From the NCBI RefSeq assembly GCF_000015205.1, contig NC_008701.1:995436-1059435 (forward strand): 64,000 nucleotides of DNA, in the 5' to 3' direction. Position 1 is the stretch's first letter; each line of letters opens with the position of its first letter. The notes below the pieces were generated by a model. That model was not told the origin of the DNA. It saw only the letters and a program-made list of their open reading frames with translations, and did no database searches. The DNA is from Pyrobaculum islandicum DSM 4184. GTDB taxonomy: Archaea > Thermoproteota > Thermoprotei > Thermoproteales > Thermoproteaceae. This document shows positions 16,189-63,731 of the stretch, piece after piece. The translations under genes were made by a program, and so were the position numbers.

Positions 16189-16250
16189 TAAACCCCGCTT
16201 TTTCTCGTATTACTCCCCAACTTTTTTAACTTCTCTCTCCTCATTTTTCT

Positions 16251-16847
16251 ATGTCTCTCGGTCAGGCGCTTGTCTCTCACGTACGTTCTGCCATGTTGGC
16301 TAAGCTCCGCGGCCAGCCCCTCCCCGAGTCTCACCCCCTTCTTTCTGGCATGAAGAGTGGGGTGTTTGTCACTGTGGAGGCTATTGTGAGGTCGGGTGGG
16401 TTTGAGAGGAGGGAGGTTAGGGGGTCGCTTGGGGTGGTAGAGCCGTTTAAAGACCTGGCGTATGACACGGCGAAGATTGCGGCTAAGCTTGTATATGCCA
16501 TCCCCCGGTTTACTGAGTTTGACCTTAGGAGGTCTGTCATAGAGGTCACTCTTGTGGAAGAGCTTAGGGAGTGGGACGGCGGGCTTGCCGGCTTTGAGTG
16601 GGGGAGGGAGGGGGTGTACGCAGTGGCTGGCCAGCGGAGGGTTGTCGTACTTCCACAGACTATGATAGAGAGGAAGATCCTTGGCGAGGCTCTCTTGAGG
16701 TATATTGAGTCTATGGCGGGGCCCCCCGAGAGGTTGTATAGATTTTCTACACGTATTTTCTACGAGCTACACCCCGAGGGGGAGGTTATTGAACGTGAGC
16801 TTTGGAAATCTCGTGTTATTAAACAATTTCTAGAAGTTGTACGTTAA
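16251..16847 (+). CDS. AMMECR1-like domain protein
   Basis: 198 residues. The segment from about 35 to 110 ([32 protein letters not shown]) follows the AMMECR1 fold, in which the conserved LRGCIG motif here reads VRGSLG. The family is widespread in archaea and has no settled biochemical role. The ATG lies 26 nt after a TTTTTTAAC box. It stands alone between the giant surface gene and the Pro-rich protein gene. The call is by motif pattern; the family is divergent here. Confidence 0.7.
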
Positions 16848-46740: not shown

Positions 46741-46767
46741 GGCAAAGGTTGGGGAATGAAATAAAAA

Positions 46768-48810: not shown

Positions 48811-49012
48811 ACCTACAAGACAGCCCAACAATAAAAAACAAAACAGGTGATATCCAAAGCGACGGAGTTAGCCAAAGGAACAGGCGGCTACCCCTCAACG
48901 CCACGCTCTCCCGCCCACTTCCCAACGACGCGCGGCGGCACTGCCGCAAGGATTTCGGCCATCTTGGAGAAGCCGCGCCGCATGTCCCTACGCCTAGGGA
49001 CTCTGCCAAACC

Positions 49013-49055
49013 CATCCCCGTCCTAAAGGGCGAGGCTTTCGATGTACAATGTAAA
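49013..49055 (+). mobile_element. Solo IS200/IS605-type right end
   Basis: CATCCCCGTCCTAAAGGGCG then AGGCTTTCGATGTACAATGT is nearly identical to the right end of the tnpB unit at 50.1 kb but on the other strand, with a complete hairpin (CCCCGTCC/GGGCGAGG). No tnpB reading frame leads into it. Confidence 0.65.
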
Positions 49056-49194
49056 ACGCCTTCCCCCGCCGCCATGAGAAGGTCTGGACACAAGCCGTCG
49101 ACGGGAGAAGAGACGTAGGTTAAGCCGTCACAGACGCAGCCCTCCGGCTCAAGCAGCCGCGACTCAACCCCCAGCGATCCCCAGGCGCCGCCAG

Positions 49195-49440
49195 GACATG
49201 TCTATTAGTCCTCTCCTACACCTCCTCCCGTAGTCCTCCAAAAACTTTTCCCAAGCCTCGTACCAAGCCCCCTCCTCTATCTCTAGAAGCTCCCCCACTC
49301 TCTGTACCACCTACGCCACCCCTCTCGCTAAGCTCTACGTACTGGGCCGTCTGGCTTCTTAGGTCTCTCAGTCTTCTCAAAACCCCGCCCAGCCCCAGCA
49401 AGCCGGCAACCGCCAGCCTAAACTCCTTGCAGAAGGCGGA
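49195..49440 (-). pseudogene. Decayed coding remnant
   Basis: Two minus-strand frames carry protein-like sequence that would join across a G-run near 49310. The first reads KEFRLAVAGLLGLGGVLRRL through QTAQYVELSERG; the second reads VVQRVGELLEIEEGAWYEAW then EKFLEDYGRRC. The family is not recognised. No start codon or promoter of its own is evident. Confidence 0.35.
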
Positions 49441-49566
49441 GGATCCCCTGACTCTAAAACTCCATACTCTAATTTAAATACTGCGCCGAGATGTTACATA
49501 CTTACGCCGATAGAATATATATCGATAATTTTTTACGTCTGAATAATTCTCTATAATTCTCTACAT

Positions 49567-49885
49567 GTGTTTGAAGACGTCGTGGGGGAGGAGATCTTGG
49601 CAGCCGCAGTCTTGCACAAAAGCGGCTTCGTCGTGAAATACGTGGGCTTAGACAGAGAGGTCTGGACTAGGCTGACGGCTGTGTTAAACAAGGCGAGAGA
49701 GCTGGCCTCCGCCTTCCAGGGGGAACCTCCTGGGCATAGACCTAGTCATGGATAGATACAGGGCGGCGGTTAGGGCGGGAAACAGCGTAGTCGCCGCCGT
49801 GTTGGCCAAGGCAGAGGTAGACCCCCAGTACCTAGACTACGTCGCCTTCCGGATCGTGGAGAAGTTCGAGGCGGAGCTCAAGTAG
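49567..49885 (+). pseudogene. Frameshifted small gene of unknown family
   Basis: The first frame (GTG 49567, VFEDVVGEEILAAAVLHKSG through ARELASAFQG) runs into a stop after 62 codons. At a GGGGG run (49719-49723) the reading continues sensibly in another frame as GNLLGIDLVMDRYRAAVRAG and ends with EKFEAELK at 49885. One extra G would explain it. The intact product would be about 105 residues, somewhat like a roadblock/LC7 domain, but that is weak. Confidence 0.5.
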
Positions 49886-50095
49886 GCCTCCAGGAGCTCC
49901 CCAGCCCTCAACAGAGCCACCCCCCTGGGCTCCCCGCCCACCTTCACCGCCACGGCGGCGCCGCCCCTAGCCCTCCCCACGTACTCCACCCCCTCGACGG
50001 AGATATAGAACTCCTCCACGGCCTCTAGATACTTCTCCGCCGCCTTCAACATAGAGGCGATGAGCTCTGCGTGCCTCTCCTCGACGCCTTCAGCC
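49837..50095 (-). pseudogene. 3' part of a gene cut off by the IS605-type element
   Basis: The frame AVKAEGVEERHAELIASM then LKAAEKYLEAVEEFYISVEG, VEYVGRARGGAAVAVKV is open from the right end of the tnpB unit (50096) to a stop at 49837. It has no start of its own before the element except an internal ATG at 50052. I infer that the element inserted into or just upstream of the original gene. The 3' end overlaps the convergent gene at 49567-49885. Confidence 0.4.
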
Positions 50096-50134
50096 TTTAC
50101 AGCCGAAAGCCTCGCCCTTTAGGGCGGGGATGTG
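50096..50134 (-). ncRNA. Right-end hairpin of the tnpB unit, possible omega-RNA scaffold
   Basis: The tnpB stop codon (TAA at 50119-50121) lies in the loop of the hairpin CCCCGCCC-TAAA-GGGCGAGG, so the 3' end of the gene and the right-end RNA overlap. This is the arrangement from which guide (omega/re) RNAs are made in studied TnpB systems; production here is inferred. Confidence 0.5.
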
Positions 50135-51186
50135 TACTTCAGTGCCCACCTAATCGGCACTAGGTCTCTCTTTTCTCTGAATCCACATTGACATACCATT
50201 GTTCTGTCGGGCAGTTGTGTCAGCTCGGAACCGCATACTGGACACACGGTGGACGGCAGACGCTTAAATCTGTACGGAATGCCGTACCACGCCAATTGGT
50301 TCGTCAACAAGTTGATAAAGCGACGGAGGTAGAGCATGTAGAGCTTGACAAGGTCGCTGGGCAGTTTCTCCTCAATCAGCTCCCTCCTGGACTCCTCCAA
50401 CATGTCGTCGATCCAAACCTCCGCTCGGCGCTTCACGGCCTTCAGTGCCAATCTGTGCGCCGCCTTTTGCGCAAAGTCTCTGAGGTATGCGTAAAGCCGT
50501 CTCCTCTTCTGCTTTATCTGTCTCCACAGCTTCTTGCTGTCTCTGCCCTCGTGGAGACCAAGTCTCTCCAGCTTTCCGTATTTGTGCTCAAGTCTGACGA
50601 CCTCGCTGTATAGCCGCTCTATGTATCCCAAGTCCGGTCTCACTCGCGCCCACTTTGTTGTTTTTCCGTCTCTGATCAGAGCCCACACAACGCCGTGTCT
50701 CCACGAATTGACGTCTACCACTAGGACGCTATTCGTCTGTATCAGCTCGACCTCACGCTCCGCCACCAGCGCTAGGTGCGGCTTCCCCCTCTTGAGACCA
50801 AGGAGGGCGAACTTCACGTCGCCGCCCTCGGAGACCCTGTCGTAGGCCCACTTCGGCATGGGCACCTCGGCGTGGCAGATAAACCTCAGCTTCACAACTC
50901 CTCTGTCGAAGTCCAACACGACGGGGGCCCCACCGTCGCCGATTTTTTGACCGTTCCCAATCCTAAGGGTTGTGAGAGGAAACCACGTTCTGGCAAGCCA
51001 CCTCTTCGGCTCTGTGCCAAACGCGAGCTCATGCCTTCTTCTGTACAGCATTATTGACACCGTCTTGGGCAGATCCGGCGGCTCAACGCGGTATCCGCGG
51101 TGCGCCAGATTCGCCAACGCCATAAGCCGCTCCACGCCACAGTCCAGCTCCGGCAGTTTAAGCGCAATCGCTCTATAGCTCTTCAT
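50119..51186 (-). CDS. tnpB: TnpB, RNA-guided nuclease-family protein of IS605 type
   Basis: 355 residues from ATG 51186. RuvC-like motifs: VLVVDVNSWRHGVVWALI (first Asp), RRAEVWIDDMLEESRR (where the Glu is expected; here a DD...EE sequence), and the final Asp in REKRDLVPIRWALKY. The zinc ribbon is CPVCGSEL...CQCG. The replacement of the usual ED motif by WIDDM makes nuclease activity uncertain. Start overlaps the small gene upstream by 14 nt. Family call firm. Confidence 0.88.
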   Translation of the reverse strand: MKSYRAIALKLPELDCGVERLMALANLAHRGYRVEPPDLPKTVSIMLYRRRHELAFGTEPKRWLARTWFPLTTLRIGNGQKIGDGGAPVVLDFDRGVVKLRFICHAEVPMPKWAYDRVSEGGDVKFALLGLKRGKPHLALVAEREVELIQTNSVLVVDVNSWRHGVVWALIRDGKTTKWARVRPDLGYIERLYSEVVRLEHKYGKLERLGLHEGRDSKKLWRQIKQKRRRLYAYLRDFAQKAAHRLALKAVKRRAEVWIDDMLEESRRELIEEKLPSDLVKLYMLYLRRFINLLTNQLAWYGIPYRFKRLPSTVCPVCGSELTQLPDRTMVCQCGFREKRDLVPIRWALKYTSPP

Positions 51187-51340
51187 CCGGCACCAAGATG
51201 ACGACAACGACCCTCTTTCCCAAGAGGGGTCTCAGCTCCGGCCTGTTGCCGATCCACACCTTGTAGTACTCGTACTTGTCCTTTCTATCCACTTGAACAG
51301 ACCCGGTGTAGATGTATATCTTGTCCACAGAGAAGTTCAC
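51173..51340 (-). CDS. Small protein encoded upstream of and overlapping tnpB
   Basis: 55 residues from GTG 51340 (VNFSVDKIYIYTGSVQVDRK, then EYYKVWIGNRPELRPLLGKR, ending PDEEL). Beta-rich and basic, with the look of a small beta-barrel nucleic-acid-binding protein. A TTTAAGTA box is about 30 nt upstream. It ends 14 nt inside tnpB, so translation is probably coupled. I know of no function; its placement implies a role with TnpB or its RNA. Confidence 0.65.
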   Translation of the reverse strand: MNFSVDKIYIYTGSVQVDRKDKYEYYKVWIGNRPELRPLLGKRVVVVILVPDEEL

Positions 51341-51430
51341 AGAAGCGATATATGTGCATTTCGCAGAAATACTTAAATTCTTCTGTGAACTGTATACAGA
51401 GCTACCGCGCGAGGGAACTGTGAGCGCGGT

Positions 51431-51600
51431 GGCCCCGCGGCCCCCCGGGGCCTGACGGTGATGCCCCAAGGATGGGGGCGTGGCTCGACAGCCCAGAGCC
51501 ATGAAGAGGGTCGCCGGGATGCGGGGAGAGGGGCCGAACGTCGAAGAGATAAGAGGAGAAGGCCACAGAGCAGAGGCAAAGGTAGCCCCACGGCCATGCC
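51431..51600 (+). other. GC-rich structured intergenic region before the pilin gene
   Basis: No convincing ORF. Strong inverted repeats occur: GCCCCGCGG/CCCCCGGGGC and GATGCCCC-AAGGA-TGGGGGC. It may be the outer left end of the IS605-type unit, a 5' regulatory RNA, or a separate RNA gene. I looked for RNase P and SRP signatures and found none convincing. Confidence 0.4.
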
Positions 51601-51631
51601 CCTGACATTACAGCATACAACCCACACAGCA

Positions 51632-51640
51632 AAATATTTA
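51632..51640 (+). promoter_or_regulatory. TATA box of the pilin gene
   Basis: AAATATTTA (51632-51640) is 26 nt before ATG 51662 and 20 nt before ATG 51656. It decides in favour of 51662, which gives a pre-pilin signal of six residues before the cleavage Gly. Confidence 0.5.
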
Positions 51641-51661
51641 AAGACAGACGTACACATGCCT

Positions 51662-52054
51662 ATGCCAACGAAACCAAGAGGAATGACATCCCTGGAGATA
51701 GCGATAATAGTGGCGATAGTGCTGATAATAGCGGTAGCAGTAGGCTGGTACCTATACACCACATTCGTAGCCTCCACCACAGGACAGCCAAGACTAAACG
51801 TTGTGACGGCCACGCTGTATAGCAATGGCACTCTGAAGATCTTTGTAGTGAACCCTGGACCTGTAGATGTACAAGTGTCGGCGATTGAGCTTGCGGGACA
51901 AGTCCAGTCAGTGAACCAGAAGATAACGGTGGGTGGAAACGCCACGCTAACTGCCAAGTTCACAGGCCAGTGGACGCCTGGCACTATGTTGCCTGGCCGC
52001 GTGATTCTGTCTGGCGGCCAGAGCTTCCCGTTCAACGCGATCGTAAAGCCGTAA
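51662..52054 (+). CDS. Type IV pilin (class III signal peptide)
   Basis: 130 residues. MPTKPRG precedes MTSLEIAIIVAIVLIIAVAV: the Arg-Gly cleavage site, the Glu at position 5 of the mature protein and the hydrophobic helix are those of archaeal type IV pilins processed by PibD/EppA-type peptidase. The rest is a beta-sandwich head (LKIFVVNPGPVDVQVSAIEL), Thr/Asn-rich and probably glycosylated. It resembles the single major pilin of Pyrobaculum pili in size and layout. Likely the main filament subunit. Confidence 0.85.
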   Translation: MPTKPRGMTSLEIAIIVAIVLIIAVAVGWYLYTTFVASTTGQPRLNVVTATLYSNGTLKIFVVNPGPVDVQVSAIELAGQVQSVNQKITVGGNATLTAKFTGQWTPGTMLPGRVILSGGQSFPFNAIVKP

Positions 52055-52071
52055 GTTCCCTCTTTTTTCCC

Positions 52072-52473
52072 ATGGATTCTCTTGGTTTTTTGGTTGTTTT
52101 AGTGGTTGTCCTCGTCATCGCTTTTGTTCTTGGGTTTTGGCTTATCTCTAGCTTTCTGGTGGCTAAGGAGGAGTTTTCGCGGGTGTATTCCATCGCGGCT
52201 TATGTAGATGCGGGGGGTGGCTTCCTTCTGTGTGTCTACAACGCGGGTCCTCACGACTTCTATGGGAGGTGGCTGGTGTCTACGAAGTCTGGGAAGTCTG
52301 TGGAGGTCTCTCTCGCCGTGCCGGTTGGGAGGACTGTCGCCGTGAGGGGGTCTCTCGGCGAGTCGTTTACGCCGGGGACGTCGCCTGCGCTTATCCTCGT
52401 GACGGGCAGTGGGAGGGGGTACGTGGTTAACCCCATCGTCGTGCCGGACATAAGCTCGGTGAGTTGTGGATAG
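52072..52473 (+). CDS. Pilin-like membrane protein
   Basis: 133 residues from ATG 52072. An N-terminal hydrophobic helix (LGFLVVLVVVLVIAFVLGFW) is followed by a small beta-rich domain (FLLCVYNAGPHDFYGRWLVS) laid out like the pilin head. It lacks an obvious Lys/Arg-Gly cleavage site, so it may be an anchor or minor subunit. It lies 17 nt after the pilin gene. Confidence 0.65.
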   Translation: MDSLGFLVVLVVVLVIAFVLGFWLISSFLVAKEEFSRVYSIAAYVDAGGGFLLCVYNAGPHDFYGRWLVSTKSGKSVEVSLAVPVGRTVAVRGSLGESFTPGTSPALILVTGSGRGYVVNPIVVPDISSVSCG

Positions 52474-52517
52474 GGGGCTTCACCGTAATACATATATTTA
52501 AGGCCTATCGTGGGCCT

Positions 52518-55058
52518 ATGAGGTGGCTTGTTCCTCTTCTGCTGGCGGCTCTGGCCTTCGCCTACGTGGTCCCCTCGGAGGGTCTCGACGTCTACTGGTG
52601 GGCCGCGCCCGACAGGGTGGCCGGCGTCGGCATAGATGGGAGAACTCTGTGGCAGATCGACGCGGTTTTTCCCCTGGCGGCGACGGACTCGGTGGGGAGG
52701 TGTGTGGCGGTGGTTAACAGGCCGTATCTCTACGTGGTGAGGCAACAGCCTATGGAGCTTAGGGTTTCTATTCCGGCTACTGTCCAGCTTTCTCCTGATC
52801 TCGTCAGCACTTTGAGCCAGTACGGCATCTCCTTCCCCAGCGCGGTTAACGTGGTGCTTAACTTCACAATCCCTCTTCCACCGCTTGTTTTGACGAGCGT
52901 CTACAAGACGTCGGTTGCCTCGCTTCACACGCCTTATGGCTACCCCCTGTGGGCCGTCTCGCTTGGGCCTAGGGTGAACGCCACCGCCGTAGCCACAAAC
53001 TGCCGGGATGTGGCCGTGGGGACGATTTCGGGGGAGGTCTACGTGCTTAGGGATGGGAAGGTGTACGCCGTGTATACATACGGCGAGCCGGTGACCGCGC
53101 TTGCCTACGGCCGGGACGTCTTGTACGTCGGCACCGCCGGGGGCAAGATCTACGCCGGGGGGAGCCTCGTCGGGTCGTGCTCCGGTTCTGTGTACTACCT
53201 CACAGTGAGGCCGGACGGGAGCCCCGTGGCGCTCTGCTTCTCCAAGGGGGCGGCCCCCACGGTCGAGTACTACCCCTACGGCGTTAGGCTGACCCCCTCC
53301 TCCTACGTGGACTACGGGATAGATACGCCGAAGGTGCCGGCGGCGCTGAGCCAAGACGGCTCTCTCTTCGTCGCGGCTACCCAGGGCTACGTGGTGGCGT
53401 TTAGCGGGGGGCGCGAGCTGTGGAGGGCGAAGGCCCCCTCTCTGCCCACGGCGGTGGCGGCCTCCAACAACGGGTCTATCGTCGTCGTGGGCACCCTAGG
53501 CGGCGACGTCTTGGTGTACTGGAACGGGAGGGAGGCGGCGAGGTTCCTCGGCTCGGCCCCCGTCACCTCCGTCGCCGTATCCGCCGACGGGAGGGCCCTG
53601 GCGGTGGAGCGGTGGGACACGGTCTCCGGCTTTAGGATCGCCTTCGCCGCGGTGCGCGTCTCGGCGCCTCCCGAGTGCCTCCCCGCCGAGGTGCAGGTGG
53701 TGGTGGGCGGCTCGGTGTATAGGTATCTGGTGTCCGGCTCCGGCGTGGTGCTCCTTCCTGTAGGCGACGTGACGGTGGCGCCCCAGTACAAATACCTAGG
53801 CGACTTCAGATGCCGCCCCCTCGGCAACGTGACGTTGGCGGTGAGGGGGGACCTGGAGAGCCCCATCGAGATAGGCTACGTCAAGGAGTATAGGGTGCAC
53901 CTCTCCCCTCCGAACATAACGAGGGGCCCCGCCTGGGCCGCGGGGCCAGCCACCTTCTTCGCAGAGCCCAGCGTAAACGTGCCGGTCTACAACTCGCCGG
54001 TTTCCTCCGGCCGTCTCGTCCTAGCGGGCTGGGAGGTAGACGGCAGGAGGATAGATCTGCCGACCCCCACCCTCTCCGTCAACGTGGCTGGGCCGACGAC
54101 GGTCAAGGCCATATACAGGGTGGAGCTGCCCCAGGCCGTGCCTATAGACGAGCAGAGGCGCTACTGGCTGAAGACCGTGCTGGTCTTCGACGCCTTTGGG
54201 AACCCTGTGGCCTCCGGCGTAGCCCCCGAGGTGTCCACCTACCCGGTGGTGGTGAGGGGGGTCTACGTCGAGCAGTACAGGGTGCGCACCTACTACCCCG
54301 CCACTGTCAACGGCTCCGACACGCTGTGGGCCGAGGCCGGGACTAAGGCGGTGTTTTACGCCCCCGACGTGGAGTTTAGAAACGGGACGAGGCTTGCCTT
54401 CGTCAGGTGGAGGGAGGCCGAGTCGAGGGAGCGGACTCTTGCCGTCACCGTTGAGAGGCCGGTTACGCTTACGCCCATATACGTCACTCAGTACAGGGTG
54501 TGGGTGAAGCCGCCGGCTCAGGTGGTGGAGCCGCCAAACGCCACTTGGGCAGACCGCGGCTCTGTGATAAAGGTGGCGGCGCCCCCCGTGTTGAACCAGA
54601 GCGGCAACGTCAGAACTGTGGTTGGGCAGTGGCTGGTTAACGGCCTTCCCAACGCCACGGGCGCCGCAGCGTCGTTTAGGGTGACGGCGCCGCTCAACAT
54701 AACCTACGTAACGAAGAGGCAGTACTTGGTGACCTTCGTCTCGGCCTACGGCACGCCGCCCCCGCCCATGTGGGTCGACGAGGGGTCCACGGCGTCTGCG
54801 GTGCCTACGCCGATGGACGTCTGGTCGCCCCCGCCGCTGCACTGGAAGTTCGCCGGCTGGAGAGACAAGGCGACGGGCACCGTCTACAGCTACCCCCAGA
54901 TGCCCTACGTCTACGGGCCCGCTACCTTCGAGGCCGTCTGGGCCCTAGACCCATTGCCTCTAGCCGCAATAGGCGGCGGGGCGGCCGCGGCAGCGCTCGC
55001 CGTGTGGTTCATGAAGAGGAGGCGCCTGGCGAAGCTGATGGCCGAGGTGGCGGAGTAG
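52518..55058 (+). CDS. Large secreted beta-propeller protein with four C-terminal repeats
   Basis: About 846 residues. A signal peptide (RWLVPLLLAALAFAYVV) precedes a WD40/PQQ-like beta-propeller (about 20-390; repeated units such as VTALAYGRDVLYVGTAGGKI, AALSQDGSLFVAATQGYVVA, VTSVAVSADGRALAVE). Then come four modules of about 75 residues, each starting YRVxxxxP and containing a WAEAG/WADRG/WVDEG turn. A C-terminal transmembrane helix (AAIGGGAAAAALAVWFMKRR) anchors it. The gene is markedly richer in G+C than the pilin genes on either side. A surface adhesin or pilus-associated role is inferred. Confidence 0.75.
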   Translation: MRWLVPLLLAALAFAYVVPSEGLDVYWWAAPDRVAGVGIDGRTLWQIDAVFPLAATDSVGRCVAVVNRPYLYVVRQQPMELRVSIPATVQLSPDLVSTLSQYGISFPSAVNVVLNFTIPLPPLVLTSVYKTSVASLHTPYGYPLWAVSLGPRVNATAVATNCRDVAVGTISGEVYVLRDGKVYAVYTYGEPVTALAYGRDVLYVGTAGGKIYAGGSLVGSCSGSVYYLTVRPDGSPVALCFSKGAAPTVEYYPYGVRLTPSSYVDYGIDTPKVPAALSQDGSLFVAATQGYVVAFSGGRELWRAKAPSLPTAVAASNNGSIVVVGTLGGDVLVYWNGREAARFLGSAPVTSVAVSADGRALAVERWDTVSGFRIAFAAVRVSAPPECLPAEVQVVVGGSVYRYLVSGSGVVLLPVGDVTVAPQYKYLGDFRCRPLGNVTLAVRGDLESPIEIGYVKEYRVHLSPPNITRGPAWAAGPATFFAEPSVNVPVYNSPVSSGRLVLAGWEVDGRRIDLPTPTLSVNVAGPTTVKAIYRVELPQAVPIDEQRRYWLKTVLVFDAFGNPVASGVAPEVSTYPVVVRGVYVEQYRVRTYYPATVNGSDTLWAEAGTKAVFYAPDVEFRNGTRLAFVRWREAESRERTLAVTVERPVTLTPIYVTQYRVWVKPPAQVVEPPNATWADRGSVIKVAAPPVLNQSGNVRTVVGQWLVNGLPNATGAAASFRVTAPLNITYVTKRQYLVTFVSAYGTPPPPMWVDEGSTASAVPTPMDVWSPPPLHWKFAGWRDKATGTVYSYPQMPYVYGPATFEAVWALDPLPLAAIGGGAAAAALAVWFMKRRRLAKLMAEVAE
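53870..54960 (+). repeat. Four tandem extracellular modules in the propeller protein
   Basis: Modules begin near YRVHLSPP, YRVRTYYP, YRVWVKPP and YLVTFVSA (nt about 53887, 54279, 54495 and 54721). Each has a Trp-x-Asp/Glu-x-Gly turn and ends in a strand with xxGWxxxG or equivalent. They resemble the Y-V...W-x-x-G repeats found in thermopsin-linked and other crenarchaeal surface proteins. Confidence 0.65.
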
Positions 55059-55110
55059 AGGTCGGCGGAGCCACCACAAAATATTTATCCTTTCTTCAAT
55101 CTTCTATACT

Positions 55111-56757
55111 GTGAGAGGTATGGAGTCTATCGACATGCTCATCGCCTTCGGCTTGGTGGCGGCGTTTATGTTGGGAGTATACCTGCTCTCCTACTATTTC
55201 ACAGATGTGACAAAGCAGACGGAGCTTCAAGCCGCGTCGAAGCTAGATGCCCAGGAGATATTGAAGAAGATAGTTTCGTCTCCCGGCTCGCCGCCGGGTT
55301 GGACTGATATAAACAGCGTACAATCTCTTGGGCTTGCAGATCCACAACTCCCTGGTCAGCTTGACTCTAGAAAGCTTCTCGCCCTCGCCGAGGTCTCCGG
55401 CGTAACCGCAGAGGCGAATTGTACAATAAATACAGCGGGCCAGGACTACCCCGTAACTAAGGTGGGCTACGGCGTGTATCTATGGGGCGTGCCTACGCCA
55501 CAGAGTGTAGACCCCGCTGTTTACGAGAGAATATTGAGGTCGCTCTTTGGCGACCAGTGGAATAAATACGACATTGAGATAGTTGCCAAGCCTGCGCTGA
55601 ACATAAGTATCATGTTGCAGAGTAGCCAGGTTTTCATTAACATAAAGCCCCCTGGCGTATATAGCTACGACGTATGTTACGTCTATTGGGGCGCCGGCTC
55701 GCCTGTGTTACAACAGCAGGGGCTTCAGATAATAGGGGCGTACGTGTGGAGTGAAACGAGTCAAACAGGGAAAGACGTCAAAACGACATGGTATCTAAGA
55801 ATAGATGTCCTGAATACGTATCCGTATGATGTAAACATAGTCGGCATTTCTCTCGGTAATGAGTTCAGCGACAGGCTCAATAAAGTCGTGAGGTCCTACT
55901 GCTCTGACTCTTTTAAATATACGCTTCCTGGCGCTCCCTCTTGTCTCCCGTCTTGTACGGTCACTGTGGCGTATACCCTAAACGGCGTAACTATTACTAC
56001 ATCTGCGCCTGTTGTTAACACACAGCCGTCTACCTTCAACCCAAGCTGTATCAAGCTAGAAAGTGCTGTTGCCCCACAGATCGACTGCACCTCTGGTGTT
56101 ACAGACGAAAACGGCTATGGCGTAGCTTCTGTTGCAGGTGTGCCTAAGTTTGCGTGGGTTAACGCAAGAGGCGTAATGATGAAGTCGGTAAACTACACAT
56201 ATGGAGGAGTGGGGACGGTTTCGCTAGTCGGCTTGGTGGCTAGACCAGATGCAGGTGTCTACCTCATACATAGTAAACTTATTCAAAACGCTGGAAGGGG
56301 CGCAAGCCTATGTGGCTGCTATGACCCCGGAGTCTCCGCTTTAGGCTTAAGAGGTCTGTGGACTTACCTCGGCGGGCAGACCGTGCCGTTGCTGAATAAT
56401 GTCGTGCTTAACCCTGCTTCTAGTATAAATCTCGCAGATTTGTGCCAAAGCGGGGATAAGGATAGAGGCGGTTGCCTTATCCCTTGGCAGTGGTTGGGCA
56501 GAGCCAAGTTTCTTATTGCGGCTGTGGAGCGGAATAGTAATGGCGACCCGCCTAAGTGCGGGGGCATCCCTCAGGAGGATGTGATTGTTATGCCACTCAC
56601 TGGTGGCCTCCCGCCTCTCTACGAAATCCGTTTTGCCACCTGGAGGAGGTGGGCTGAGAGACGCCCAGAGGCTCTTGCAGTGTCTTACGCAAGTGCTCTG
56701 GCTGACGCAGGCGAGGTGACGTATAAAGTCGACCTGTGGGTGTTTAGATACCCATGA
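55111..56757 (+). CDS. Large minor-pilin-like surface protein
   Basis: 548 residues. VRG precedes MESIDMLIAFGLVAAFMLGV, a class III-like signal with Arg-Gly and a Glu at position 2 of the mature protein. The long ectodomain contains 12 or more Cys (CTINTAGQ, CYVYWG, CSDSFKY, CLPSCTVT, CGCYDPG), suggesting disulfides. The size suggests a tip or adhesin subunit. The GTG is 27 nt after AAAATATTTA. It heads a run of four more genes coupled by 4-nt overlaps. Confidence 0.7.
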   Translation: MRGMESIDMLIAFGLVAAFMLGVYLLSYYFTDVTKQTELQAASKLDAQEILKKIVSSPGSPPGWTDINSVQSLGLADPQLPGQLDSRKLLALAEVSGVTAEANCTINTAGQDYPVTKVGYGVYLWGVPTPQSVDPAVYERILRSLFGDQWNKYDIEIVAKPALNISIMLQSSQVFINIKPPGVYSYDVCYVYWGAGSPVLQQQGLQIIGAYVWSETSQTGKDVKTTWYLRIDVLNTYPYDVNIVGISLGNEFSDRLNKVVRSYCSDSFKYTLPGAPSCLPSCTVTVAYTLNGVTITTSAPVVNTQPSTFNPSCIKLESAVAPQIDCTSGVTDENGYGVASVAGVPKFAWVNARGVMMKSVNYTYGGVGTVSLVGLVARPDAGVYLIHSKLIQNAGRGASLCGCYDPGVSALGLRGLWTYLGGQTVPLLNNVVLNPASSINLADLCQSGDKDRGGCLIPWQWLGRAKFLIAAVERNSNGDPPKCGGIPQEDVIVMPLTGGLPPLYEIRFATWRRWAERRPEALAVSYASALADAGEVTYKVDLWVFRYP

Positions 56758-57119
56758 GGTGGGTTGTGGAGCTTGTATTTGCGTCTTTTCTCCTCGTGTT
56801 GGTGTTGGCTCTCTACAACTACACGGCGCCTAGCTCAATCGTGGTGCAGGCGGGGGAGAGAGGCCGTTTTGCCGAGCTTTCGCTTTTTGCCGTGCGGCTG
56901 GCCTCCAGCCAGGAGTTCCTCTTCCGGCTGTGGAGAGACTGGGACGGCGCGGTAGAACAGGCAAATGTAGAGGCCAAATCGGTTGACCCCCTGGCGTCTG
57001 TAGATGTGGCTCTTCCCAGCGGTGGCGCATGTCCGGCGGCCTCTGCGCCGAGGTTTTCGATATCGCTCGCGACTGTGCTTCCAAACGGCACGACCGTCTG
57101 TATAGTTGTGAAGTCATGA
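56754..57119 (+). CDS. Small pilin-like protein
   Basis: 121 residues. N-terminal hydrophobic helix RWVVELVFASFLLVLVLALY with a Glu at residue 5, then a helical and short beta region with a Cys pair (GGACPAAS, TVCIVVKS). Pseudopilin layout. ATGA overlap with both neighbours, so translation is coupled through the operon. Confidence 0.65.
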   Translation: MRWVVELVFASFLLVLVLALYNYTAPSSIVVQAGERGRFAELSLFAVRLASSQEFLFRLWRDWDGAVEQANVEAKSVDPLASVDVALPSGGACPAASAPRFSISLATVLPNGTTVCIVVKS

Positions 57120-58339
57120 GGGGGCAGGTGATCCTCGTAACAGCTTTGGTAATCGCCTTGGCTATCTCCGCCGTATTGATCTTACAGTCGGCGGCGGTCT
57201 CTGCGCCAGGCTTCGGCGGCGTCAGAGCGGCGTATGGAGTATTTTCACGCGACGTGGCAAAAGCTGTAGACGCCGTAGCTTCCTACGTCGACTACGTCGG
57301 CACGATTTCTCTGCTCAATTTTACAGAAAACGCCGCCGCATATGGGCTACCTGCGGCAGGGCTTGACACATACTGTAGCTGGTTGCATATCAACAAGACT
57401 GCAGATATGGTAAACGCCTCGATGAAGTTTTTTGTAGCAAACAGAGCGGCCCTTGGCCTATCTGCAGAAATGCCCACGTGGTTGCGGAGGCCCAACTGCA
57501 GATCTATATTGTTCAAAAGCACGAACGGCCTCACCCTCGTGAACATAACTCTGTCTAAACCGCCTAACGGAACTGTGTTTAGAACCCCATTACCTCCGTA
57601 TGTTGTTGCCGCTTGGCATATAGACAGAGGCATCTTGAGACCTATCTCTTCTTTTGCCATAATTCTGCCAAATAGAACCTATATGGCTTCATATAGTCTA
57701 TCTATGGTTATGAACATCTCGCTTTTGGCTCTTGTAAATCTTAACATAACTAGGAGTCTTAGCGTAGGTGTCAGAGTACTCGGCGTCGATAGCCAATGTA
57801 CGCCAGATGTGGTATGTGTAAATATTACTGTATCAAGACCATACGCATGGTCGGCAAAGTTTATAGCCCTCAATAGAACTATGTATCTGCAAGACGGTTG
57901 GACTATAAACTATACAGTGGCATATCCGAGAGTGAATGTAGTAAACTACACAGAGCGAAGCGCCGTGTATAGCATAAATACCCAGGGGCTTAACGAATAC
58001 GTCTTAAAGGCGTACGTTGGCGGAATTCCGCTGTACGTTCTGCCAAGAGATTTCACATATATCTGCAAAAGCGGGGTGTTATCCAATGGTAAACCCTGGA
58101 GCTCTCTGAATAATCCTTCCCACATTCCAATTGTCCTCTATAATTTTACAAATAGTGCGGTAGTGAGCAAATTCAACACGATATATGCCAATGTAACAAT
58201 CGTAGATGTGAAGATAAGGGATGCATCTATCACCTATTGGGTTATACATAGAAACGGATACCTCAATTTTACGGAGAACATATGTAGTAATGTTAAGGGG
58301 ATTCTTCAAAGTTATGGTTTATACTGGCTGTACCCATGA
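57116..58339 (+). CDS. Pilin-like protein with large ectodomain
   Basis: 407 residues. MRG followed by QVILVTALVIALAISAVLIL again gives an Arg-Gly next to a hydrophobic helix. The ectodomain is Asn/Ser-rich with many N-glycosylation sequons and six or more Cys. The first 50 nt use a different frame of the previous gene's end, with ATGA overlap. Likely a minor pilin. Confidence 0.65.
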   Translation: MRGQVILVTALVIALAISAVLILQSAAVSAPGFGGVRAAYGVFSRDVAKAVDAVASYVDYVGTISLLNFTENAAAYGLPAAGLDTYCSWLHINKTADMVNASMKFFVANRAALGLSAEMPTWLRRPNCRSILFKSTNGLTLVNITLSKPPNGTVFRTPLPPYVVAAWHIDRGILRPISSFAIILPNRTYMASYSLSMVMNISLLALVNLNITRSLSVGVRVLGVDSQCTPDVVCVNITVSRPYAWSAKFIALNRTMYLQDGWTINYTVAYPRVNVVNYTERSAVYSINTQGLNEYVLKAYVGGIPLYVLPRDFTYICKSGVLSNGKPWSSLNNPSHIPIVLYNFTNSAVVSKFNTIYANVTIVDVKIRDASITYWVIHRNGYLNFTENICSNVKGILQSYGLYWLYP

Positions 58340-58932
58340 CGTCTCTTGAGTTGTTGATTATTACGGCTTTTGCGCTTCTGGCTATTTTTGCGGCTGTTCC
58401 GATTGTTCTTCAACAGATTTATCAATATCAGGCGTTGGTGGAGGCGCGTGCGGCTCTTGCCTTTCTTAACGTGTTGGCTGACGGTATAGAGTCGGATATG
58501 GGCGCGGCGTATGCGCAGAAGGTTTTGAATCTTCCGACGTTGCGCTTTGGTGGGTTGGACTACCGCGTTGCGGTTGTTGGTACGTGTGGAGGCGCGCCTG
58601 TGTATAACACCACGTTGATCTACCGCTCTCAGTATCTCTCTCTGTTTGGCCAGTTTAGAGGTACTGTGTGGGGGCGTGTTGTAGATGCTCCAGAGCCTCC
58701 GCTGGCGGTGTACGGCTGGGGAACTTCGGCGTCGTTGACGCCGCGTGTGGTTAGATATGGCAGAGTAGCGGTTGTGCTTAATATAACATATACGGCATCT
58801 CCTAGCGCCTCTGGGGCTGGGGTGTACTACGAGGTGAAGGCGCCGCGGGTCTACAGCGTGGATCAATGTACTATAGGAGTCCAAGGCGTCGACTCCGTCG
58901 TGGTTGTTCCGGTTAGGGTCGAATTGCGATGA
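58336..58932 (+). CDS. Pilin-like protein starting with a mature-type pilin sequence
   Basis: 198 residues. The start MTSLELLIITAFALLAIFAA matches the mature N-terminus of the major pilin (MTSLEIAIIVAI) including the Glu at position 5, but there is no preceding leader. It could be used without cleavage or be read with a cryptic upstream start. The ectodomain is beta-rich with a GTCGGAPVYN motif. ATGA overlaps on both sides. Confidence 0.65.
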   Translation: MTSLELLIITAFALLAIFAAVPIVLQQIYQYQALVEARAALAFLNVLADGIESDMGAAYAQKVLNLPTLRFGGLDYRVAVVGTCGGAPVYNTTLIYRSQYLSLFGQFRGTVWGRVVDAPEPPLAVYGWGTSASLTPRVVRYGRVAVVLNITYTASPSASGAGVYYEVKAPRVYSVDQCTIGVQGVDSVVVVPVRVELR

Positions 58933-59462
58933 ACGCCTTACAGACCGCCGTAGCTATGGCTTTTGCTGGTGTTTTGGCGGTTATAATTGCGTGGCTTGTC
59001 GACGTGCAGGCGCAGGCTGTGTTTGAGGAGGAGGTGCGCGCCGCGGCGCAAGCTCTTCTAGATTCTGTGGCTAACCAGGTGAGGGTAGGCGTCTCTACGG
59101 CGTTGCTTCCCGGCGTCTATGGCTTTAGGCAACAGATGTCTTTGCCTAGCTATGCTCCGCCGTTTGACGCGTTTTACTACTCTATAACTTTTCGTAACGT
59201 CGGCGGCGTTTTAGTGGTCACTGTAGACATGACGGCGTATAGAGGCAAAGCGAGCGCCAGAGTCTCTGTTTCAAGAGCGGTCTATTACCTGGGCGATCTA
59301 GTAAAGCCCGAGGGGGTTGTAAAAGTGTATGCCGAGAAGGGGCAGAACTACGACTGCGCAGTTGGAGACTGGGTTGATCTAACGCGGGACGGTTGCTACA
59401 CCAGTTGGGTTATGCCAAGTCCCTACTACGTGAGGTACTTCAACTACACTGTCGCACGGTGA
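58929..59462 (+). CDS. Pilin-like protein, last gene of the operon
   Basis: 177 residues. Hydrophobic N-terminal helix (LQTAVAMAFAGVLAVIIAWL), then a helical stalk and a beta-rich head with two Cys (YDCAVGDW, DGCYTSW). The 5' end overlaps the previous gene by 4 nt. The stop abuts the stop of the convergent gene at 59463 with no gap. Confidence 0.65.
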   Translation: MNALQTAVAMAFAGVLAVIIAWLVDVQAQAVFEEEVRAAAQALLDSVANQVRVGVSTALLPGVYGFRQQMSLPSYAPPFDAFYYSITFRNVGGVLVVTVDMTAYRGKASARVSVSRAVYYLGDLVKPEGVVKVYAEKGQNYDCAVGDWVDLTRDGCYTSWVMPSPYYVRYFNYTVAR

Positions 59463-59768
59463 CTACGTCCCCTCTATTATCACGCCGGCTGCAAACAGCA
59501 CGTTCCCCAGCTCCTCCGGGGTCGGCGGCATTCTGTAGGTGGCGGCGTGGCTGATTATCAAGGCCTTGAGGATCTCCCACTGTTGTGGATCCGCGCTGTA
59601 TCTCCCGTAGCTCGTCTCCACGTGCCCGCCGGCGTATCTGGCGTAGAAGTCCCCCATCCTCAGCTCGTTTGGCCCAGCTCTGAGGCCGGCACTCTCGGCG
59701 TTTTTCAGCGCCTCCGAGGTGGCGTCTTCCCCGAATCTGGCCTTGTCCGCCGGGTTTATGTACGCCAC
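59463..59768 (-). CDS. Small hypothetical protein
   Basis: 101 residues, soluble, mixed charge (INPADKARFGEDATSEALKN, QQWEILKALIISHAATY). No recognised domain. GTG start at 59768, about 20 nt from TTTTTTAAC. It is convergent with and touches the pilin operon. G+C-rich compared with the pilin genes. Confidence 0.5.
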   Translation of the reverse strand: MAYINPADKARFGEDATSEALKNAESAGLRAGPNELRMGDFYARYAGGHVETSYGRYSADPQQWEILKALIISHAATYRMPPTPEELGNVLFAAGVIIEGT

Positions 59769-59788
59769 GGCGCCTCTCCGTTTCGTAG

Positions 59789-60343
59789 TTAAAAAAGTAT
59801 GTAGTAGTTGGTCTGGCGCCTCCTCCTCGCCACGCCTGCCGAGAGCGGGGCGGCGGGGGCCATGGCTATTAGGTCCTCCAGCTCGTATCTGTAATATATG
59901 CGGGTGGCTCTGTCTCCCCAGGGCACCTCGTACACCCCCGGCGCGACCTCTCGGCCTCTGGCGGGAGCCCAGGCCGTCGCCACCACGAGGCGGGCGGCCC
60001 TCTTAGCCTCCGCCAGAGCCCTCCGGGCGGCCTCGGGGGGCATGTGGTGTATCACCGCCACTAGGTAGGCGGCGTCGAAGGCGCCGTCTCTGAAGGGGAG
60101 CATGGTGGCTTCGCACTCCACGAAGTCCCCGCCTGGGCTGAGCCTCCTGTCGAGGTCGCAGTGCACCACGTAGGGGTGCTCGTGCTCTAGGTACCTCGGC
60201 TGCGCGCCGGTGCCCGACCCCACGTCCAACGCCTTTGGCCCAGCCGTGGCGAAGTCGGCCACCGGAAGAGGCCTAGCCCTCGTCGCGCCGTACTCCCGGC
60301 CTATGGCGAGGTAAGCCTCCCTAGCCCGCCTAGCCCACTCCAT
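59789..60343 (-). CDS. Class I SAM-dependent methyltransferase
   Basis: 184 residues. Motif I ALDVGSGTGAQPRYLE and motif II-like VHCDLDRRLS show the Rossmann methyltransferase fold; LPFRDGAFDAAYLVAVIHHM is motif IV/post-I. The N-terminal IGREYGATRARPLPVADF resembles Trm9/ALKBH8-type tRNA wobble-uridine methyltransferases, but that is not conclusive. ATG 60343 is chosen; the frame is open to 60427. Small ORF-like sequence (VAVYYDEDLGGARSAADSIV) sits just upstream in another frame. Confidence 0.7.
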   Translation of the reverse strand: MEWARRAREAYLAIGREYGATRARPLPVADFATAGPKALDVGSGTGAQPRYLEHEHPYVVHCDLDRRLSPGGDFVECEATMLPFRDGAFDAAYLVAVIHHMPPEAARRALAEAKRAARLVVATAWAPARGREVAPGVYEVPWGDRATRIYYRYELEDLIAMAPAAPLSAGVARRRRQTNYYILF

Positions 60344-60427
60344 ACGCAGCAAGCCACACGAGGAGGACAATAGAGTCTGCCGCACTCCTGGCGCCTCCGA
60401 GATCTTCGTCGTAGTAAACCGCCACAT

Positions 60428-60583
60428 ACATATCTATGTTGAAGTTTAAAAGCTAAGTACGCTCCTCCGGCGGCGCAACCTCTCGGTGGAGGGCGCCCGC
60501 GCTCCTGCAGATATAAGTGGGCCATCTCCGAGACGGCCACACACCCGGTACAAATGTTACCAGCAGGGTGGAGGCAGCGAAGG
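60428..60583. other. Short intergenic region
   Basis: It contains TTTTAAACTTC (60443-60453, minus promoter) upstream of the methyltransferase. A 31-codon minus-strand ORF begins GTG at about 60424. Nothing else recognised. Confidence 0.4.
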
Positions 60584-61553
60584 TCAAAGCGCTTTGGCTA
60601 CCGCGTCTCTTAGCGCTGGCCAATGCCAGGCGTAGTATTCGCCGACACCGAGCGCGGGGTCTCTCGGCGGCCTCCCGCCTGCGATTGTCTCCGTCAGCTC
60701 CAACACTTTGTTGTACTTGTAGAGCAGTCTCTCCAGCCTCTCGGCTCCCGGCTTGTCGAGGACGTCTGGGTCTTCCACCGCCCGCTTGAGCAATTCAACA
60801 ACTCCGAGCTTGGCGACCTCTCTCGCCATCTTGTCTACCCCCTCCCTCTTGACGATGGCCTTTACGTACCTCTCCACGTCCCAGCCCACCCTCTTCAAGT
60901 CGCCTACGCACCTGGGGTTTCCTCCGCATGTCCGCCATAGCGTCTCGAAGTCTATAGGCGGGTTGAGGGCGTCGTAGAGCTCTCTCCTCCCGCGCCAGAT
61001 TCCAGACCATGTACGGATCGGCGTAGCCCTTAGGGAGTATCTTCTCGACAGCGGTGTACTCAGACGTAATGAGGACGACGTTGAGTGTTATGTTTCTGAG
61101 TTCTTCGTCCCTCAGGGAGGGGTGTTCCATTAGGTCCATGTAGTATTTGACCCAGCCGACTGGGTCGTCTCTGTAGGCTCGGTGGAATTCGTCCACAACG
61201 AGGAGTATGTCTTTAGAGGTCTTTTCTACGAAGTATAGGGCGATGTCTACCGCGGTTCTGGCCAGGAACTCGCCTACTTCGCCGGCCGCCGCCTTTGCGA
61301 ATTTTGAAAGCGCCTCCTTCAGCCACTGCACCGCGTTTGTGAAGAGGGCGTTTCTAGCTCTCTTTGCCCTCGCGTTTATGTAGAGAACCACCACGTCGCC
61401 AAAGAGCTCCTCCGCCCTCTCCGCGACCTTCTGCGCCAACGTCGTCTTACCACAGCCGAGAGGGCCGTAGAGGAGAAAGGGGTAGGTATGTTGCTCCCCC
61501 ATAACCTCCCTAAACCACCTAAGCTCCCGGACACGGCCGACGAAGATATCCAC
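60584..61553 (-). pseudogene. Frameshifted archaeal AAA ATPase (MJ1301-type)
   Basis: The start (GTG 61553, VDIFVGRVRELRWFREVM) leads through Walker A LLYGPLGCGKTTLA and Walker B ILLVVDEFHRAY to YADPYMVWNLARE. At a GAGGAGAGAG run near 60985 the frame breaks. The sequence continues correctly in another frame as ELYDALNPPIDFETLW through GGNPRCVGDLKRVGWDVERY to the stop at 60584. Loss of one GA unit would explain it. The intact protein would be about 323 residues. TATA CTATATAAAAC is 26 nt upstream, so the gene may still be transcribed. Confidence 0.75.
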
Positions 61554-61641
61554 GTCTCTCCCTGTGGCTTGTTTTATATAGATTTTGTGTAGCGTTTTAT
61601 CTGTGTCAAGTGTGGCGCGGGGGTATCGCGTTGTGGTGGGT

Positions 61642-62160
61642 CTACGGATCTCCCGGCGGTGGCTGTTGGATCTTTTTGGCCCATTCTTTGGTCTTCTGGG
61701 CGAGGTGTCGTATGTCTTTTTCGACGTTGCGTATGTCTGTGTAGCGGCTTGCGACCCCCTCTGAGTCTAGCCCGTTGTATTGGAACTCGTGGAGGTTTAT
61801 CGCCAAGTCTGTAAGATATACTATCTCCACGCCGTATATGTCTGCTAGGATAGACGCGACCTCTCTAGCCCTCGTTGTCGGTATATATGCGATGATTATA
61901 TCCGACTTTTGCCTGGCCTCTCCTGTTTTTATCTTTCACAACGCCGCCGAATCTGCTGGCGATTGCCTCTCTGTTTTGCGCCGCGGCGGCCGCCAGAAGC
62001 GCTTTCCAAGCCTGCCACGCCTTGCCTGCGGCGTTTCTCATAAGGCCCTGCTCTAGAAATCTAACGGCGAGCTCCGCCTCTAACACGGCCTCTTCTGTTC
62101 TCAGCTTGGCGTATTGTTTAGCACCGCGCCACGCATTGGAGGCGGCCAGGCGTCGAATGC
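61642..62160 (-). pseudogene. Frameshifted PaREP1/HEPN-like gene
   Basis: One frame reads TEEAVLEAELAVRFLEQGLM then RNAAGKAWQAWKALLAAAAA, the HEPN-like helix pair of the Pyrobaculum PaREP1 family. At an AAAAA run (61929-61933) the product changes frame and continues as GEARQKSDIIIAYIPTTRAR, VEIVYLTDLAINLHEFQYNG to the stop at 61642. One extra A would explain it. A further break near 62130 separates it from any good start, although an ATAAATAC box is present near 62183. Confidence 0.65.
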
Positions 62161-62266
62161 CACGAGATAGCCCGCGGTAATGTATTTATGTCTTGTCGTA
62201 GCCGTTTCGCAGACGGCGGCGCCGGGCTTGGCCGCGTTGGTTTTTTAATGGTTTGTCATTTGTCTT

Positions 62267-63676
62267 GTGGAAAAGCCTCTGCGGTTTATTAGGATGGCCA
62301 GTGGGGTTCACGTAGTTGCCGTGATGACGCATCCCTTTCCCTGCCCGGGGAGGTGTAGCTTTTGCCCCTCTGCGGCTGGGGTTCCCAAGTCGTATATGCC
62401 GGATAGTCCGGTGGTTTTGAGGGCTGGGCGTAGTGGTTTTGACCCCTACCGGCAGGTGGTGGGGCGGGTGAAGGTGTATCTCGACAACGGCCACATGCCC
62501 TCTAAGGTGGAGGTGGTGGTTATGGGCGGGACCTTCTCGGCTTTGCCTAGGTGGTATAGGGAGTGGTTTATTGGCAACGTGTTTAAGGCTCTCAACGACT
62601 ACCCCAGCTGGGCGGCTGGGGCCGACCCTTCGCCTGACCTCGAGCTTGAGCAGCGGCGTAACGAGGGGGCGCGGATCCGGCTGGTGGCTTTGACTGTGGA
62701 GACGCGCCCCGACTACGTCGACGTGGGAGAGGTGGACTTCCTCCTTAGGCTTGGGGTGACGCGGGTAGAGCTGGGAGTCCAGTCTATCTACGACGACGTG
62801 TTGGCCCGGGTCGATAGAGGCCACGGCGTTGCCGAGGTGGTGAGAGCCACGGCGCTTCTGAAGGACTCGGCGTATAAGGTGTGTTACCACCTAATGCCGG
62901 GGCTCCCCGGAAGCGACCCGGACCGCGACCTGGAGATGTTTAGGGAGGTTTTTTCAAATCCAGACTTCATGCCGGACTGCGTCAAGATATATCCCACGTA
63001 CGTCGTCCCCGGGACGAGGCTGTATGAGGAGTGGAGGCGGGGCGGCTATAGGAGCTACGGCGAGGATACGTGGCTCGATCTGTTGGCGAAAATCTACGCC
63101 TCTGTGCCGAGGTGGGCCAGGGTTATGAGGCTGGGGAGGGATATACCTCTGCACCATGTCGTCGACGGCCCGAGGTGGGGCAATATGAGACAGGTGGTGC
63201 TTAAGCGGATGGAGCAGCTAGGTCTTAAATGTGTCGAAATAAGGTGTAGAGAGGTTGGCATAAAGCTTGCCAACGGCGTTTACGTAGAGCCGGGGCCTGT
63301 GGAAATAAAGAGACATATCTATGAAGCTTCTCGCGGCGTGGAGGTCTTTTTAGAGGCTGTGGGGCCGGACGACACTCTATATGGCATACTTAGGCTGAGG
63401 ATGCCGTATAAGCCGCATAGGCCGGAGCTCGTTGGGCAGACGGCGTTGGTGAGAGAAATACATGTATATGGCCCAGAGGTGCCGGTGGGGGAGGAGGGGG
63501 TCTGGTGGCAGCACGTGGGCATAGGCAGATCTCTCATGGAGAGGGCTGAGGAAATTGCCGCGTTGGAGTTCTCAGCAAAGAAAGTCGCTGTGATAAGCGG
63601 CGTGGGGGCCAGGCCCTACTTCAGGAAGCTCGGCTATGAGAGATGTGGCCCCTACATGTGTAAAGAGCTTAGATAA
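62267..63676 (+). CDS. elp3: Elp3, radical-SAM/acetyltransferase (tRNA wobble uridine modification)
   Basis: 469 residues. The radical-SAM cluster motif CPGRCSFC (C26, C30, C33) and GGTFSALP belong to the Elp3 catalytic domain. RVELGVQSIYDDVL follows. The C-terminal GNAT domain is ALVREIHVYGPEVP, WQHVGIGRSLMERAEEIA. Archaeal Elp3 makes cm5U at position 34 of tRNAs. GTG start, 22 nt from TTTTTAAT. The promoter region adjoins the PaREP1-like relic. It lacks Elongator partners, as usual in archaea. Confidence 0.95.
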   Translation: MEKPLRFIRMASGVHVVAVMTHPFPCPGRCSFCPSAAGVPKSYMPDSPVVLRAGRSGFDPYRQVVGRVKVYLDNGHMPSKVEVVVMGGTFSALPRWYREWFIGNVFKALNDYPSWAAGADPSPDLELEQRRNEGARIRLVALTVETRPDYVDVGEVDFLLRLGVTRVELGVQSIYDDVLARVDRGHGVAEVVRATALLKDSAYKVCYHLMPGLPGSDPDRDLEMFREVFSNPDFMPDCVKIYPTYVVPGTRLYEEWRRGGYRSYGEDTWLDLLAKIYASVPRWARVMRLGRDIPLHHVVDGPRWGNMRQVVLKRMEQLGLKCVEIRCREVGIKLANGVYVEPGPVEIKRHIYEASRGVEVFLEAVGPDDTLYGILRLRMPYKPHRPELVGQTALVREIHVYGPEVPVGEEGVWWQHVGIGRSLMERAEEIAALEFSAKKVAVISGVGARPYFRKLGYERCGPYMCKELR

Positions 63677-63731
63677 GACGCCGGCGGCTTTGTCGTCTGC
63701 TGTTGTTTAATTTTGTAAATTTGTGTATCTC

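Follow-up and report, generated by a model that had tools for sequence, protein, structure and literature searches.

Cleavage by the prepilin peptidase is regarded as a defining trait of type IV pilins. The type IV pilus of Pyrobaculum arsenaticum is known at the level of its shaft; its pilin, Par_PilA (PDB 6w8u), carries a 7-residue leader that is cut between Gly and Met (PMC7347861). The text of that paper covers the shaft and mentions neither minor pilins nor operons. Among the Thermoproteales, a type IV pilus 'subclade 4E' was described by Makarova et al. 2016 (PMC4858521), with an ATPase and a TadC protein, a PilA gene that is stand-alone or linked, and several putative minor pilins. Here we describe a locus at positions 51662-59462 of a 64,000-nucleotide stretch of Pyrobaculum islandicum DSM 4184 (contig NC_008701.1, positions 995,436 to 1,059,435; the window). 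It was compared across 19 genomes of the family Thermoproteaceae, that of P. islandicum (G000) and 18 others (G001-G018). We consider it likely that the filament and surface components of a single archaeal type IV pilus, specific to Thermoproteaceae, are encoded here, an overall explanation that includes the tip complex and the leaderless pilins proposed below. What is new here is the leaderless state of four of the seven pilin-like proteins (p2, p4, p6 and p7), and the entire difference of p3-p7 between two genomes that are 90-94% identical in the DNA on either side.

The list of open reading frames gives eight genes in the same orientation (Table 1). The earlier note on this DNA had described a pilin and propeller locus, which it is, but had counted seven genes, missing p2 between pilin and propeller. 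Four ATGA overlaps (56754, 57116, 58336 and 58929) couple the five genes p3-p7; the note had seen such overlaps, and its chain of four genes from 56754 began one gene too late. TATA-like AT stretches were seen by eye about 25-30 nucleotides upstream of pilA (about 25), the propeller gene and p3. They suggest three transcription units, of which p3-p7 is one. Searches of Pfam and NCBIfam with the pilin-like genes gave nothing above cut-off, and no type IV pilus ATPase or platform gene lies within the locus.

Table 1. Genes and cassette of the locus, in positions of the window. A slash marks the predicted leader cleavage site.
Feature	Position	Strand	Properties and basis
pilA-like major pilin	51662..52054	+	7-residue leader, MPTKPRG/MTSLEI; phmmer to PDB 6w8u
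p2, second pilin-like protein	52072..52473	+	leaderless, MDSLGFLVVL...; open reading frame and weak pilA similarity
propeller protein, 846 residues	52518..55058	+	ATG start; WD40/PQQ profile matches, hydropathy, alignment
p3, minor pilin-like	55111..56757	+	GTG start, MRG/MESID, acidic residue (Asp5) at +5, 12 Cys
p4, small pilin-like	56754..57119	+	start MRWxxEL, without K/R-G leader, Glu at residue 6
p5, leader-bearing pilin-like	57116..58339	+	MRG/QVILV, hydrophobic +5, 407 residues; candidate first (tip) subunit
p6, leaderless pilin	58336..58932	+	MTSLE (Glu5, Pro22), 198 residues
p7, leaderless pilin-like	58929..59462	+	MNALQ (Gln5), 177 residues
exchangeable cassette p3-p7	55128..59481	+	without nucleotide match to G004 (locus L037); flanks 90-94% identical

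A phmmer search of PilA against the PDB returned Par_PilA as the sole match (E = 6.1e-17). Par_PilA and the PilA of the locus have nearly the same N-terminus (MTSLEIAIIVAIVL), and both proteins have a 7-residue leader ending in Gly, so that the P. islandicum pilin agrees with the cleavage site described for P. arsenaticum. The predicted class III leader of PilA, cut after Gly, is a mark of an archaeal type IV pilus, and the classical pilin named in the earlier note is indeed present. A PilA-like protein was found in 18 of the 19 genomes. Within the locus, a class III leader, with Lys or Arg and then Gly (K/R-G) before the hydrophobic helix, is present in pilA, p3 and p5 and is missing in the other four pilin-like proteins. 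p2 is weakly similar to pilA (E = 1.9e-7, 27%).

The assembly machine lies elsewhere, as the earlier note had supposed. An ATPase gene (G000:C1:965353-966834; PF00437, 90.5 bits) and a TadC-like gene (G000:C1:963829-965346; UpsF-like, E = 1.5e-11, below cut-off) were found together 80 kb upstream of the pilin. They are about 76% and 62% identical, respectively, to the pair that lies behind p3-p7 in a Thermoproteus locus (L034). G000 has several ATPases of the PF00437 type. The best match to that family, at G000:C1:1271886-1272449, was rejected as the motor, since its identity to the Thermoproteus ATPase beside p3-p7 is about 31% against about 76% for the gene at 965353-966834.

ATPase and TadC were each found in 19 of 19 genomes and p6 in 17; G011 and G017 yielded no p6. 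In three Thermoproteus genomes (G013, G014 and G015) p3-p7 are followed about 1 kb on by TadC and the ATPase, and in G012 and G016 p6 and TadC are about 13 kb apart. A contig of G007 (C72) has the order pilA, propeller, TadC, ATPase, and on contig C9 of G017 pilA, a p2-like gene, TadC, the ATPase and the propeller all lie inside 8.3 kb. In the neighbourhoods that were fetched, p3 and p7 flank p6 in constant order. The comparison of synteny proposed in the earlier note for Pyrobaculum and Thermoproteus thus found the genes conserved together. Because the parts adjoin each other in other genomes, all of them are assigned to a single type IV pilus of the Thermoproteaceae. The system is probably that of subclade 4E, an assignment made by description: the gene content given above for that subclade is shared by the system, and the two extra proteins reported for it, one of the membrane and one of the cytoplasm, have a similar-looking pair (by eye) in Thermoproteus loci. 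The accessible text on subclade 4E mentions neither missing leaders, nor a propeller (0 occurrences), nor cassette exchange. So far as the literature searched shows, this is a known kind of system with unreported variation.

A second locus of type IV pilus type was seen in the same genome (L042, G000:C1:1262000-1281000, mainly its positions 8700-16398). It has an ATPase gene, two TadC-like genes and two pilin-like genes with MRG leaders, one of them encoding 1167 residues, and an open frame in it (G000:C1:1274211-1274495) matches the C-terminal end of the propeller protein. Interrupted frames were also met: the ATPase matches of G012 and G015 contain stops, and the p5 frame of G013 is short; these are perhaps sequencing errors or decay.

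The leaderless pilins were examined for their start positions and register. The earlier note had observed that the 58336 product (p6) begins with MTSLEL without a leader, and its start at the mature position was confirmed. The note had taken this pilin as a single unusual case, but p2, p4 and p7 are leaderless too, and the state recurs in register across the family. In the Pyrobaculum group p6 starts at +1 in 11 of the 11 genomes that yielded it, with MTSLE (6 of 11) or MQSLE. All six p6 proteins from the other two genus groups of the family carry MRG before the same register (LEALE or LESLE); these MRG-bearing forms include the Thermoproteus orthologues referred to below. Leu4, Glu5 and Pro22 are invariant in the 16 aligned p6 sequences, from which the broken G010 frame (132 residues, internal stop) was excluded. 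Of 16 p7 sequences, seven are leaderless, four of them starting with MNALQ and three with MRSLE; a further seven have MRG or MRS, and two have a lone Met before +1 (G005 and G018). Among 14 p3 sequences, seven have a leader, six are leaderless, all with GTG starts, and one has MA before +1 (G007). When the last of these and the two p7 with a lone Met are excluded, the trees of p6, p7 and p3 each require a minimum of two leader changes. The p2 orthologues start at the mature position as well (L037, 97%; L028, 60%, MSSLE). The p4 set was gathered by the motif MRWxxEL, so that the conservation of the motif is by construction; five of its loci are independent of the motif. Position +5 is Gln in p7 and Asp in p3, and has no acid in p5 and p2. 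Distant relatives of p6 at the level of the order have leader-like N-termini (for example RHG/QSDVL and GKG/QSEV), and the leader is therefore probably ancestral.

It could be argued that the leaderless products are mis-called starts and that a true leader lies upstream, behind a non-standard start codon. Par_PilA orthologues are misannotated in databases in just this manner (PMC7347861). In addition, an in-frame GTG is present two codons upstream of p6 in G003 and G009, and ATA and CTG codons lie upstream in G000. The open frame upstream of the p6 Met is short, however: 2 codons in G002, 3 in G004, G006 and G008, 4 in G003 and G009, and 6 in G001 and G010. No ATG, GTG or TTG occurs before the stop in 9 of the 11 genomes, and K/R-G directly precedes the Met in 0 of 11. 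The four-base overlap of p5 and p6 (ATGA or GTGA) is kept in six leaderless genomes (G000, G001, G002, G005, G007 and G010), where the p5 stop and the p6 ATG overlap precisely, at the junction where the Thermoproteus MRG leader starts; it is also kept in the leadered G012, G015, G016 and G018. The upstream stops therefore exclude misannotation for most p6 genes, and mis-called starts are a very unlikely explanation of the leaderless state. No report of leaderless pilins in Pyrobaculum was found in the literature searched, in which subscription papers are thinly covered. A p6 of the Pyrobaculum type, with upstream residues as in G001, was also seen on a contig filed under a Calditenuaceae metagenome-assembled genome (L044), a placement that is probably a binning error.

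In the AlphaFold2 model of p6 (predicted local distance difference test, pLDDT, 87.5), a helix at residues 3-54 is followed by an all-beta domain. As modelled, p6 has the layout of a mature type IV pilin, an N-terminal hydrophobic helix with Glu5 and then a beta domain. Foldseek gave 0 matches of the model to the PDB at E <= 0.001 (best E 0.19), and VIA-align gave two rows, both to unrelated proteins (Z 2.9 and 2.0). The absence of a clear fold match in the PDB is no evidence of a new fold.

Pilin-like proteins of this kind need not be filament subunits. In the archaellum, ArlF and ArlG resemble archaellins and likewise have no class III signal peptide, and ArlG processing is independent of PibD, according to the accessible text of PMC8978795. 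The leaderless proteins of the locus might similarly form a fixed periplasmic stator or collar, and without leaders they would make poor PibD substrates. We regard this as the main rival to filament subunits, and as unlikely. Unlike ArlF and ArlG, p6 holds the Glu5/Pro22 register of its leader-bearing Thermoproteus orthologues. Leader state switches within the orthologues of p3, p6 and p7 while the mature register stays the same, as would be expected if the role of the mature protein had not changed. A search of PDB chains with a p6 profile gave no match at E up to 10, hence no similarity to ArlF or ArlG was detected at the level of sequence, although the two may still be related in fold.

The remaining leader-bearing member of the coupled genes besides p3 is p5, which keeps [RK]G/Q and a hydrophobic +5, with no Glu5, in 16 of 16 readable copies. 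Its intact copies are of 393-407 residues, or of 1068-1206 residues in the other cassette type; Pfam searches with four of the long orthologues gave nothing over cut-off. The bacterial subunit GspK is recognised by its larger size, its lack of Glu5 and its place as first subunit (PMC5207764, in its accessible part), and p5, judged by its sequence, has the size and the missing Glu5 of the GspK type. The minor pilin or pseudopilin tip complexes of the GspHIJK type have coupled minor pilin genes and one larger subunit with a hydrophobic +5, as here. They differ in that no sequence relation was detected and the bacterial subunits keep their leaders.

We propose that PilA forms the shaft and that p3-p7 are minor pilins from a translationally coupled operon, which probably make an initiating or tip complex. 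With its predicted cleavable leader and hydrophobic +5, p5 would take the first position, the one that GspK has in bacteria. The Glu5, Gln5 and Asp5 subunits p6, p7 and p3 would stack below it and PilA would follow, with the TadA-type ATPase and the TadC platform 80 kb away driving assembly. In p2, p6 and p7 the initiator Met would stand at mature +1 and take the place of the processed N-terminus, so that translation itself would yield the processed form and the prepilin peptidase would not be needed.

The genes p3-p7 are set apart from the rest of the locus by comparison with G004. The nucleotide match between the two genomes ends at the first p3 codons (55127) and resumes 20 bases past the p7 stop (59482); identity is 94% before this stretch and 90% after it, and there is none inside. 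The propeller proteins are 97% identical, p3, p5, p6 and p7 give partial matches of 27-38%, and p4 gives no match. On the trees, p6 and p3 of G000 group with those of G001, G003 and G009 (support 100/99 and 100/100), and p3 and p6 of G004 group with those of G006. Full-length matches to all of p3-p7 occur in G001, G003 and G009; in the remaining genomes the matches are weak or missing. From these sequence relationships, p3-p7 appear as an exchangeable cassette. Fast divergence in place is conceivable, as minor pilins evolve fast, and the fast evolution of Thermoproteales type IV pili is stressed in PMC4858521. It is highly improbable here: the flanking identity of 90-94% breaks off abruptly at the p3 start and about 20 nucleotides past the p7 stop, p3 and p6 from the two genomes group differently, and p5 has 407 residues in G000 against 1100 in G004. 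The G+C content of p3-p7 is 51.2% in G000 and 59.4% in G004, in each case near that of its own surroundings, so that either genome may be the one that changed. The ATPase tree is compatible with G000 and G004 as sisters or otherwise.

Profile searches matched residues ~140-390 of the propeller protein to propeller chains of the WD40/PQQ type; the match to the BamB/YfgL profile (2.2e-8) was below cut-off. By hydropathy, the protein has a signal-type hydrophobic segment at its N-terminus and another hydrophobic segment, which begins at residue 813, towards its C-terminus; the propeller and a region of repeats lie between them. A C-terminal tail, RRRRLxxLMAEVxE, is conserved in the alignment. An AlphaFold2 model made from two sequences had a mean pLDDT of 41.7 and was left out of the fold search. 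All 19 genomes have a member of the family, and in several it lies next to the pilin gene. The signal segment, the C-terminal hydrophobic segment and the RRRR tail indicate a surface protein with a membrane anchor and argue against a place at the fibre tip. Held by its C-terminal membrane segment, the propeller probably sits at the cell surface around the base of the pilus or serves as its dock. The earlier note had read the locus as an apparent fibre plus adhesin, which would make the propeller a pilus-tip adhesin carried on the fibre. The pilin fibre stands. The propeller gene does lie between pilin genes, and a propeller with repeats is an architecture common among surface binding proteins; but with its own signal segment, C-terminal anchor and basic tail, and no pilin N-terminus, the protein should stay membrane-bound, and the tip adhesin is quite unlikely.

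The same note had described the propeller gene as G+C-rich, as if inserted. The richness was borne out: G+C is 65.7% against 50.1% for the window, and G+C at third codon positions (GC3) is 0.84 against a mean of 0.50 (standard deviation 0.07, n = 21 upstream genes). A recent lone insertion was rejected, since the family is present throughout the Thermoproteaceae genomes, in several cases beside the pilin gene, and high G+C is common to the surrounding block, with a GC3 of 0.81 in a methyltransferase gene (59789-60427) and a dip to 0.49-0.66 at p3-p7. The stretch 51538-55127 is 94% identical to G004, most 300-base bins being 95-99% identical. Further upstream in the window (24.1-44 kb) the two genomes are 66-75% identical, bar two short matches of 82-83%, and in the ATPase/TadC stretch 82-86%. 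The ATPase gene has a GC3 of 0.79 in G004 against 0.57 in G000. As the block is near-identical to G004 against 66-75% elsewhere in the window, the propeller DNA looks recently imported together with its neighbours from a high-G+C relative, and not like an inserted foreign gene.

A high-G+C island was noted at 46763-63700, from an MCM helicase gene to beyond 62.9 kb. It is 86-94% identical to G004 except in the p3-p7 cassette and a TnpB region, against 66-75% upstream, and is probably a recent transfer. The TnpB-like gene lies just upstream of pilA (50119-51207, minus strand; Pfam PF07282, 29.2 bits, over cut-off; NCBIfam TnpB below cut-off), and its region has no nucleotide match at the corresponding place of G004. 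Elsewhere in the window, 8218-16188 (+) is one open frame of 2656 residues.

Several points weigh against the pilus as proposed. The Glu of p4 is at residue 6, out of register. Met aminopeptidase normally takes off a Met that precedes Thr, and the MTSLE forms might thus end with Glu at position 4. The topology signal usually supplied by the basic leader is absent in the leaderless forms. The pilin fold ascribed to p6 rests on the helix-plus-beta layout of its model, and p5 is followed by further genes of its cluster, whereas a typical GspK gene comes last. An adhesin role of the propeller is still conceivable. The match to a prepilin peptidase (PF01478) at G000:C1:1492972-1493262 is weak, with 22.4 bits against a cut-off of 26.5.

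The synteny links an ATPase and platform to a pilus whose shaft structure is solved, and the exchange of the cassette suggests a single physical unit in which p3-p7 work together. Orthologues that have an MRG leader in some genomes and lack it in others, with the register unchanged, make the need for processing, in topology, release or assembly, directly testable. We put forward, tentatively, that several minor pilins of Pyrobaculum may be born mature, translated from residue +1, with Glu5 present and the Met amine free. They would bypass the prepilin peptidase and could begin the tip complex before the major pilin has been processed, and p3-p7 would pass between species as a single cassette, a process that viruses binding to the pilus may drive.

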